From NCBI GenBank assembly GCA_026713865.1, contig JAPONQ010000019.1, positions 1 to 64,000 on the forward strand: a DNA stretch of 64,000 bases, read 5' to 3'. The notes beneath the pieces are model-generated. The model was not told where the DNA came from, did no database searches, and saw only the letters and a list, made by a program, of their open reading frames with translations. The stretch comes from Chloroflexota bacterium. GTDB taxonomy: Bacteria > Chloroflexota > Dehalococcoidia > UBA2979. The position numbers and the translations under genes are program-made. Below are positions 55,521-58,459 of this stretch, piece by piece (position 1 is the stretch's first letter; each line of letters begins with the position of its first letter).

Positions 55521-56171
55521 GTGACCATAAGCGAGGGAGCTGCCCCGTACGCGGCGCGCCTGGAGATCGACTACCCGGAACGGCTGGATCGGCTGACCTC
55601 CGTGTTCCGGCTGATCTGGCTGATTCCGATCTTCGTTGTGGCCGGGGTGCTGGCCGGTAGCGGCAGCCAGTGGGTGGTGACGAACTCGGGTGAGTGGGTC
55701 CAGGGATCGGCCGTCGGCATCGGCGGCGGACTCTTCCTCGCGACGCTCCTGATGATCCTCTTCCGCCGACGCTATCCCCGGTGGTGGTTCGACTTCCACG
55801 TCGAGCTCACGCGCTTCAGCGCGAGGATCTCCGCCTACGCCGGCCTGCTGACGGATCGATACCCCTCCACGACCGACGAGCAGTCCGTGCACCTCGACAT
55901 CGACTATCCGGACGCGGGGCGCGACCTCAACCGCTGGCTGCCGCTCGTCAAGTGGCTGCTGGCCCTCCCGCACTGGATCATCCTCGGCGTCCTGTCTGTG
56001 CTCGCGATGTTCGCGGTCGTGATCGCCTGGTTCGCGATCCTGTTCACGGGGCGCTACCCGCGCCGACTCTTCGACTTCGTCGTCGGGGTCTCACGGTGGG
56101 GGCTCCGCGCGTGGGCCTACAGCTTCCTGCTCGTGACCGACCGCTACCCGCCGTTCCGGCTCGGGGCGTAG
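55521..56171 (+). CDS. DUF4389 family membrane protein
   Basis: A 216-residue membrane protein of unknown function with two DUF4389-like halves. Each half carries an ARLEIDYPERLDRLTSVFRL / VHLDIDYPDAGRDLNRWL segment and a (W/L)FDF motif, followed by helices (LIWLIPIFVVAGVLAG; GGLFLATLLMILF; LPHWIILGVLSVLAMFAVVI). The halves end in similar TDRYPS and TDRYPP motifs, pointing to an internal duplication. The GTG start follows AAGGAGACGACC. Confidence 0.85.
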   Translation: MTISEGAAPYAARLEIDYPERLDRLTSVFRLIWLIPIFVVAGVLAGSGSQWVVTNSGEWVQGSAVGIGGGLFLATLLMILFRRRYPRWWFDFHVELTRFSARISAYAGLLTDRYPSTTDEQSVHLDIDYPDAGRDLNRWLPLVKWLLALPHWIILGVLSVLAMFAVVIAWFAILFTGRYPRRLFDFVVGVSRWGLRAWAYSFLLVTDRYPPFRLGA

Positions 56172-56293: not shown

Positions 56294-57283
56294 GTGAGCG
56301 AGGAAGGGCAGCAGCCGGCTGCGGAGCAGAGCCCGGCCCCGCGCCCCGAGCCGGAGTCGGACACGGGGACACCGCCGGAGCCGGCTTCTGGAGAGTCCGC
56401 CCCGGCGCCGGCGCGCCCCGCCTGGTCCTACTTCCTCACGCCCGCCGCGGTGCTGCTGGGGGCGGCCGCCATCATCGCCGCCGTCGTCCTCACCGATCGT
56501 GGCGGCGAACCCGATTCCGCGGACTCCCTCGCTCCCGCTCTCGAGTCGCTCTCCGCCACAGCCGGCTCGCTCTCAAGCACGGCCCGATCGCTCGCCGAGG
56601 CCGCGGACGCCCTCGCCGCCGGCACCCAGGCGAGCCTCACGGCCCCGGGCACGCCGGCCACGCTGCGCGACGCGGTGACCGGCTATGCGGCGCTGCTCGG
56701 TCTCGACGTCGGCCTCTTCGATCAGTGCCTGCAGCAGGCGGCGCCCTATGAGGCGATCAGCGCGCAGCTCCAGATCGGCGTCGCACTCGGTATCAGCGCC
56801 ACGCCCACCTTCTTCATCAACAACAAGCTGGTAGCCGGCGCGCAGCCGGCCTCCGTCTTCGCCGAGGTGATAGCGGCCGAGCTCGCGGGCTCCCCGACCA
56901 GCATCGACGAGTACTCCCCGGCGATCCGGCAGCTGGCCGAGCGGGATCCCCCGAGCTTCGTGATCCACGCCGAGCGGCCCGACCTGACCGGCGCCTTCAT
57001 CGAGGGCAACCCCGACGCCGCGGTCGTGATCGTCGAGTTCAGCGATTTCCAGTGTCCCTTCTGCCAGCGCTGGTACTACGACACGCTGCCGGAGGTGCGC
57101 TCGCTCGTGGGCGACGACGTCGCGCTCGCCTTCGCCCACTTCCCGCTTACGCAGATCCATCCCAACGCGGCCGGCGCTCACGTCGCCGCCGAGTGCGCGG
57201 GAGCCCAGGATCGCTTCTGGGAGATGCACGACCTCCTCTTCGAGCAGCAGGAGGAGTGGGCCGACCTGCCGGCGATCGGCTGA
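56294..57283 (+). CDS. membrane-anchored DsbA/thioredoxin_4-like protein with permuted halves
   Basis: A 329-residue protein: disordered Pro/Glu-rich N-terminus, one transmembrane helix (residues ~46-66), a Ser/Ala/Leu coiled segment, then two thioredoxin_4 pieces in reversed order. Residues ~121-190 match the C-terminal half of DsbA-like proteins, with the cis-Pro strand ATPTFFINNK (P171). Residues ~235-329 match the N-terminal half, with EFSDFQCPFCQRWYYDTLP (C254-P-F-C257) and AECAGAQDRFWEMHDLLFEQ, and the protein ends where the helical insert would continue. One copy of each half is present, as in a circular permutation. No DsbA-like sequence follows the stop in any frame. The GTG start is tentative. 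An extracytoplasmic disulfide role is likely. Confidence 0.85.
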   Translation: MSEEGQQPAAEQSPAPRPEPESDTGTPPEPASGESAPAPARPAWSYFLTPAAVLLGAAAIIAAVVLTDRGGEPDSADSLAPALESLSATAGSLSSTARSLAEAADALAAGTQASLTAPGTPATLRDAVTGYAALLGLDVGLFDQCLQQAAPYEAISAQLQIGVALGISATPTFFINNKLVAGAQPASVFAEVIAAELAGSPTSIDEYSPAIRQLAERDPPSFVIHAERPDLTGAFIEGNPDAAVVIVEFSDFQCPFCQRWYYDTLPEVRSLVGDDVALAFAHFPLTQIHPNAAGAHVAAECAGAQDRFWEMHDLLFEQQEEWADLPAIG

Positions 57284-57420: not shown

Positions 57421-58320
57421 GTGGACTTCGACCGCGAGCACGACGCACTGGTTCGCGCCGCGGCCTTCGCCTGGCTCGACCAGCTCGAAGCGGTGCACGG
57501 CGACGTCCTGCCGTGGAGCGCGCTCCGGGGCGGCTTCCCGTTCCGCGGCGAGCGCGTCCACGTGGTGAGCCCGCAGGGAATCTTCACGCCGCGGATCCTC
57601 CAGGCGCCGCTCTCCATCCGCACGAGCCACGACGGTCCCTACGACGACGAGCTCGGGCCATCCGGCCTCGTCCGCTACATGCACCGCGGCGAAGATCCCG
57701 CGCACCGCGACAACAAGGGACTGCGACTCGCGATGGAGCAAGGCCTCCCGCTCGTCTACTTCGTCGCCATCGCGAAGGGCCGTTACCAGGCGCTGCGCCC
57801 GGCGCACGTGGCGAGGGAGTCGCGCCGTGACCTCTGCTTCTGGATCGACCCCACAGGAGCCGGCTCCGCCTTCGCCTTCCGGGACGCGCCCGACATCCGC
57901 GCCTACGCCACCACGCAGGCGCTCCAGCGCCTGCACCAGGGCCGCTTCCGCGAGCGCGTGCTCGACGCCTACCGCGAGCGCTGCGCCTTCTGCAGCCTCC
58001 GCCGCCGGGAGCTGCTCGACGCCGCCCACATCATCCCCGACAGCGAGCCCGGCGGCGTCGCGGAGGTGCGGAACGGCATCGCGCTCTGCCGCCTTCACCA
58101 CGCCACCTTCGATCGGCACGTCGTCGGCGTGCGGCCGCGCGATCACGTCATCACCGTGCGGCGCGACGTGATGGACGAGGAGGACGGTCCGACGCTCCGC
58201 TACGCCATCCAGGGGCTCGACGGGAAGCCGATGGCGCTGCCGCGCCGCGCCGGCGACCGGCCGGAGCAGGGGTTCCTCGAGACCCGATACCGGCGCTTCT
58301 TGGCGGTCGCTCCGCCCTGA
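57421..58320 (+). CDS. HNH endonuclease domain protein
   Basis: A 299-residue protein. The C-terminal HNH module is complete: CAFCSLRRRELLDAAHIIP, then the Asn and Cys in VRNGIALCRLHHATFDRHVV. The N-terminal ~190 residues (VSPQGIFTPRILQAPLSIRT, DNKGLRLAMEQGLPLVYFVA, then KGRYQALRPAHV) look like a PUA/SRA-type recognition fold, as in modification-dependent restriction enzymes. That assignment is an inference. The GTG start has a very strong Shine-Dalgarno (AAAGGAGG, 8 bases). No methylase or other defence gene is adjacent. Confidence 0.82.
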   Translation: MDFDREHDALVRAAAFAWLDQLEAVHGDVLPWSALRGGFPFRGERVHVVSPQGIFTPRILQAPLSIRTSHDGPYDDELGPSGLVRYMHRGEDPAHRDNKGLRLAMEQGLPLVYFVAIAKGRYQALRPAHVARESRRDLCFWIDPTGAGSAFAFRDAPDIRAYATTQALQRLHQGRFRERVLDAYRERCAFCSLRRRELLDAAHIIPDSEPGGVAEVRNGIALCRLHHATFDRHVVGVRPRDHVITVRRDVMDEEDGPTLRYAIQGLDGKPMALPRRAGDRPEQGFLETRYRRFLAVAPP

Positions 58321-58383: not shown

Positions 58384-58459
58384 TGGTGCCGAGGGCCGGA
58401 ATCGAACCGGCGACACCACGATTTTCAGTCGTGTGCTCTACCGACTGAGCTACCTCGGC
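58384..58459 (-). tRNA. tRNA-Phe (GAA)
   Basis: A 76-base cloverleaf with a 7-bp acceptor (GCCGAGG/CCTCGGC), D-arm GCTCAGTCGGTAGAGC, anticodon arm CACGA-CTGAAAA-TCGTG with anticodon GAA at 58434-58436, T-arm GCCGG-TTCGATT-CCGGC and discriminator A. The 3' CCA is encoded in the DNA. Confidence 0.98.

Follow-up and report, generated by a model that had tools for sequence, protein, structure and literature searches.

The stretch of Chloroflexota DNA analysed here (the window, 64,000 nucleotides) carries a gene that very probably encodes a naturally circularly permuted, membrane-tethered DsbA. The two halves of the domain would form one fold in swapped order, the origin is probably a tandem duplication, and the protein is most likely a thiol:disulfide oxidoreductase. 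Judged by its recurrence and by the models described below, the gene is a real, conserved natural permutant of DsbA for which folding as a single domain is predicted.

Domain order and predicted fold

A preliminary description of the window, made from the sequence alone, had noted that the C-terminal half of the domain (TPTFFIN, with the cis-proline P171) comes ahead of the N-terminal half (CPFC at 254-257). Profile and structure comparisons bear this out. Pfam Thioredoxin_4 matches the protein in swapped pieces, profile positions 8-94 on residues 237-323 and positions 105-163 on DNA positions 56696-56872 (about residues 135-193). Both PF13462 (E 3.3e-20) and PF01323 (E 8.2e-12) score above cut-off and cover both halves, again in swapped order. 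The DsbA structure 4pwp aligns as two swapped pieces, chain residues 57-155 on query 222-320 and 171-244 on query 131-203. These pieces are complementary, and each half is present exactly once, as had been claimed. The C-terminus falls within the helical insert of DsbA, also as described, and homologues end at the same place. Homology to the DsbA-like superfamily spans the whole domain, with the CXXC and the cis-Pro loop both present. The standard thioredoxin fold with a helical insert has its elements in the order N-C; all 35 members of the family have C-N instead, which makes this a permuted variant and not a standard member of the superfamily. The features of the gene are collected in Table 1. 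An ATG at the corresponding place starts the orthologue in the related genome G001.

Table 1. The gene for the permuted DsbA and its parts, in positions of the window
Feature	Positions	Strand	Basis
CDS, membrane-anchored circularly permuted DsbA (probable), 329 aa	56294..57283	+	GTG start; open reading frame and G001 orthologue
Transmembrane helix, residues about 44-68	56423..56497	+	Low-confidence full-length model; hydropathy and flanking charges in 35 homologues
Stalk, SLSxTAxSL-type helical repeat, residues about 80-111	56531..56626	+	Alignments; model with low pLDDT
DsbA domain, old C-terminal half, residues 121-207	56654..56914	+	Pfam, 4pwp match, Cys-pair alignment
Cys145, one of the conserved non-catalytic Cys pair	56726..56728	+	Cys co-occurrence
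Thr170-cis-Pro171	56801..56806	+	Sequence (TPTFFIN); invariant in alignment A2
Linker from old C-terminus to old N-terminus, about 24 residues	56915..56986	+	Length survey of members
DsbA domain, old N-terminal half, residues 232-329	56987..57280	+	Pfam, 4pwp match, Cys-pair alignment
CPFC active site, Cys254 and Cys257	57053..57064	+	Sequence, alignments
Cys301, putative partner of Cys145	57194..57196	+	Cys co-occurrence

Two lines of evidence indicate that the swapped halves add up to a complete domain. Half-profiles made from the permuted family were run on 203 canonical domains, and the median overlap between N-half and C-half was 9 residues. The permuted chain accordingly contains the whole domain, with a slight redundancy at the break. 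Trimming of a tandem repeat at two neighbouring sites of one loop would leave such a surplus. The second line is structure prediction, which had been proposed as a check. AlphaFold2 gives one confident domain for residues 117-329 (pLDDT 91, pTM 0.86), not two incomplete ones, from an alignment (A6) of the query, loci L064 and L065, and 77 unaltered C-N segments of tandem DsbA proteins, the last being a reason for caution about this model. An earlier alignment of separate half-domain fragments (A4) was left out because MAFFT set C fragments on the N half. The full-length model, from three permuted sequences, is poor (pLDDT 58.7), and its secondary structure is similar to that of the 117-329 model.

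In a VIA-align comparison with 991 chains, the best PDB match to the model is the engineered permutant 1un2 (Z 10.8, rmsd 3.5, 157 residues aligned, model 7-208), a match to be read with the caveat that 1un2 may have been among the AlphaFold training data. The second row has Z 7.8 with about half of the model aligned, and most rows span the N-half only. Foldseek gives 1un2 a TMq of 0.53 over 206 columns; for BdbD the value is 0.38, with 105 columns. The earlier suggestion that a complete fold could form in permuted order is thus supported by the model. Both halves, present once, swapped and predicted to form a single DsbA fold, are what is expected of a circular permutant.

A pair of non-catalytic cysteines lies on either side of the break. 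C301 (N-half) and C145 (C-half) are both present in 32 of 32 permuted proteins examined. Among 202 canonical domains, 48 have both, 154 have neither and none is mixed (p 1e-47); with one domain per locus the counts are 43, 54 and 0 (p 1e-28). These p values ignore the relatedness of the sequences, although the zero mixed cases are telling even so. Retention of an all-or-none pair in the permuted members is an argument for continued packing of the halves against each other. The two residues probably form a disulfide and, since the break lies between them, such a bond would staple the new ends. A pair in this position makes the packing of the halves directly testable.

Conservation and origin in the Chloroflexota

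The permuted order is shared by 35 Chloroflexota genomes in two families of one class. Among 40 relatives of the window genome, it was found over the whole length in G001, G006 and G020, and the window's own family has the gene in 4 of 44 genomes. With a profile built from these four proteins, the gene was detected in 31 of 38 genomes of a second family of the class, f33 (one match being cut by a contig end), and in 21 of the 22 with completeness of 90% or more and contamination of 5% or less. Single-contig f33 genomes with the gene include G081, G111, G166 and G196. With 35 genomes sharing the order, 31 of which belong to the second family, its recurrence is far beyond chance. Assembly artefact and local deletion are ruled out by the independent and single-contig genomes.

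The permuted proteins have the same C-terminal end, with no additional sequence completing either half, and nearly all of the open frames stop right behind xEWxxL or a variant of this motif. The homologue search that had been suggested as a check therefore speaks against a local deletion. The linker is 24 residues long in 29 of 32 members, and the CXXC cysteines are present in 32 of 32 examined. Pairwise dN/dS is 0.04-0.22 (eight pairs); the gene is under purifying selection and is not a pseudogene. The preliminary description had offered two truncated tandem domains as its alternative, that is, non-functional half-domains left from a tandem DsbA gene by degenerate fusion or local deletion. 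Relatives do have tandem DsbA genes from which such remnants could come. The idea is nevertheless scarcely credible, given the single confident domain of the model, the order, linker length and C-terminus conserved over 35 genomes, the low dN/dS, the invariant CPFC, the complementary halves and the retained cysteine pair.

A survey of 400 genomes of the phylum gave no permuted protein outside the class. Three candidates were set aside, G555 as a tandem at a contig edge and G520 and G717 as triples. Among the best 80 genome-wide matches listed, the C-N order occurs in L064 and L065 only (two peptide patterns). A search of phages gave no match to the permuted protein, and no plasmid match reaches 80% coverage of the query; the best of them (Granulicella), whose CDS is about 500 aa long, is taken to be a tandem. 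Plasmid matches H3, H4 and H8 are DsbA-like matches under formate/nitrite transporter annotations on haloarchaeal plasmids.

In trees of both halves, joint and separate, the permuted members form one clade without canonical members inside, and a single origin of the family is most likely. Both halves of the clade fall among normal DsbAs, with a weakly supported sister group that differs between the halves. The four proteins from the window's family cluster with those of genus g94 of f33 (branch 99/97), with G111 outside at 94/88. This grouping and the rarity of the gene in the window's own family suggest lateral transfer.

Tandem duplication is a known route to circular permutation (PMC3320104). 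It appears the likeliest here because relatives carry tandem DsbA genes: those of G006 and G020 encode 511-518 aa and adjoin VKOR. In these genomes the double gene (L031, G006:C58:22602-24189, and G020:C128) is followed directly by VKOR; in the window genome a lone DsbA precedes VKOR. An ancestral DsbA (Thioredoxin_4) domain, probably duplicated in tandem, would have shed its first N-half and its last C-half. The loss of the outer halves would leave a chain that starts and ends in the helical insert, with the linker of about 24 residues between the old termini. The two halves are predicted to pack as one DsbA fold with CPFC beside the cis-Pro, and the Cys145-Cys301 bond would hold the new ends.

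Probable membrane tether, possible redox partners and gene neighbourhood

The N-terminal tail before the transmembrane helix is rich in P and E in the window protein. Over 35 proteins, the 15 residues before the helix have on average 1.9 K+R and 0.7 D+E, and after it the means are 0.46 K+R and 3.4 D+E. By the positive-inside rule this charge bias points to an N-terminus inside and a DsbA domain outside, where the protein most likely acts as an extracytoplasmic thiol:disulfide oxidoreductase. The helix had been placed at the old junction of the halves. Part of this stands, in that the stalk joins the helix to the old cut in the helical insert; the helix itself is at the new N-terminus. It would serve as a membrane tether that puts the anchor on the helical cap and not ahead of strand beta-1.

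The stalk bears on whether one chain makes one domain. In a domain-swapped oligomer, the C-half of one chain would complete the N-half of another, the active site would be shared, and the stalk would perhaps hold the chains. Prediction of a monomer cannot tell swapped from unswapped forms, and the stalk is heptad-like in all four proteins of the window's family. In most f33 members, however, it is of low complexity and not heptad-like, and the linker of about 24 residues is long against the 5-residue GGGTG that suffices in 1un2. Such an oligomer would fit the same data but is improbable. As to an N-terminal oligomerisation domain of the DsbC/DsbG/ScsC type, there is a heptad-like stalk in some members only, in a part of the model that is of low confidence.

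The permuted DsbA might belong to the reducing or isomerising side, with a CcdA/DsbD-type membrane protein feeding it, and not to the oxidising arm of VKOR or DsbB; this would change its role only. None of the nine g94 genomes gave a VKOR or DsbB match, and eight of them carry the permuted gene. Of 9 genomes tested, 8 have DsbD_TM-type genes, G111 (g94) among them. Against this, a search of G006 found no DsbD_TM, and genomes of the window's family, that of the window included, have VKOR beside a normal DsbA. In f33, DsbB is above cut-off in 16 of 38 genomes and VKOR in 6 of 38, and the absences may reflect divergent genes or incomplete genomes. The permuted gene is not linked genetically to either type of partner, and a reducing or isomerising role is less likely than not. 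The g94 genomes without a VKOR or DsbB match do contain DsbA-type proteins, with no re-oxidant evident among the matches.

A more speculative proposal, which is unlikely as it stands, is that the permutation was selected because the anchor then sits on the helical cap in place of the beta-1 side, so that the active site faces another membrane partner in a relay without VKOR or DsbB. It is tied to the eight g94 genomes that have the permuted gene and in which neither partner was seen. If true, it would represent a distinct thiol relay.

Neighbouring genes give no useful functional clue. No redox partner gene lies beside the permuted gene in the neighbourhoods compared, and the surroundings of CcdA-like and canonical DsbA genes in G000 and G111 gave no link to it. 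The gene is directly behind ruvA and near mutM in most f33 genomes compared, with another context in genus g6. In the window its neighbours encode a DUF4389 protein and an HNH protein. The former (55521-56171, +), directly upstream, has two DUF4389 stretches; it adjoins the permuted gene in G001 and was not seen beside it in G006 or G020. The latter (57422-58320, +; frame open from 57052) is an HNH_2 protein resembling the phosphorothioated-DNA restriction endonuclease family, with 60.8 bits to NF045808, below the cut-off of 180. The sole tRNA gene found in the window, a tRNA-Phe, is at 58384-58459 (-). A promoter and terminator scan around the gene found nothing.

Comparison with known DsbA proteins

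Canonical anchored or lipoprotein DsbA-like proteins (PF13462; NF041057 Rcas_1661; B. subtilis BdbD, 3eu3; C. diphtheriae DsbA, 4pwp) share with the window protein the homologous halves, the CXXC, the cis-Pro and, by its predicted topology, an extracytoplasmic location. Their order is N-C, in contrast to C-N. Against the NF041057 Rcas_1661 (seleno)lipoprotein family the window protein scores 107.9 bits, below the cut-off of 190. Many canonical DsbA matches in the class have one in-frame TGA (for example G259:C20, G167:C1:8855, G107:C46, G205:C11), suggesting selenocysteine forms that would fit this family. M. tuberculosis DsbA (Rv2969c, 4ihu/4jr4), whose cysteines were compared by spacing from CXXC and cis-Pro and not by residue-level alignment, differs in being unpermuted and in its active-site motif.

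Tandem multi-DsbA proteins of Myxococcota and Chloroflexota have serial C-N segments that align over the whole permuted domain. They retain complete terminal domains, whereas the window protein has one domain equivalent only. For example, L066, L068, L070, L071, L074, L075 and other Myxococcota-like loci encode proteins in which complete DsbA domains, three or four in number, repeat about every 212 residues. Two or three multi-DsbA genes in a row occur at L081, L088 and L101, and at L009 and L011 DsbA domains are apparently fused to NhaA-like Na+/H+ antiporters.

Circularly permuted DsbA is well known from protein engineering. Hennecke, Sebbel and Glockshuber reportedly made a library of circularly permuted E. 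coli DsbA in 1999, and the engineered cpDsbA_Q100T99 (PDB 1un2) is said to be that of Manjasetty et al. in 2004. Permuted E. coli DsbA variants that remain functional have been described (PMC3281007, citing Hennecke 1999). For a natural permuted DsbA, no report was found in the open literature, subscription papers being mostly outside the scope of the search.

The sequence of 1un2 is E. coli DsbA 100-189, GGGTG, then 1-99. The permuted-family profile matches it as a collinear single piece and matches E. coli DsbA of wild-type order as two swapped pieces. The window protein is like 1un2 in the swap, in the predicted global fold and in having the helical-insert loop as break. The break point is at ...LFEGVQKT in 1un2 and at ...LLFEQQEEWADLPAIG in the window protein; the chain ends 6 residues past LF in the former and 13 past LLF in the latter. 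With its break in the helical insert as in 1un2, the window protein is cut at a site that tolerates permutation. The engineered protein is man-made and soluble with a 5-residue linker. The window protein, unlike it, is natural and membrane-anchored; its linker runs to about 24 residues, and a non-catalytic cysteine pair is conserved across the cut. Its homologues offer a set for comparing permutation, folding and anchoring, and in a natural family with nearly the same break as engineered DsbA, evolution would have arrived at a similar solution.
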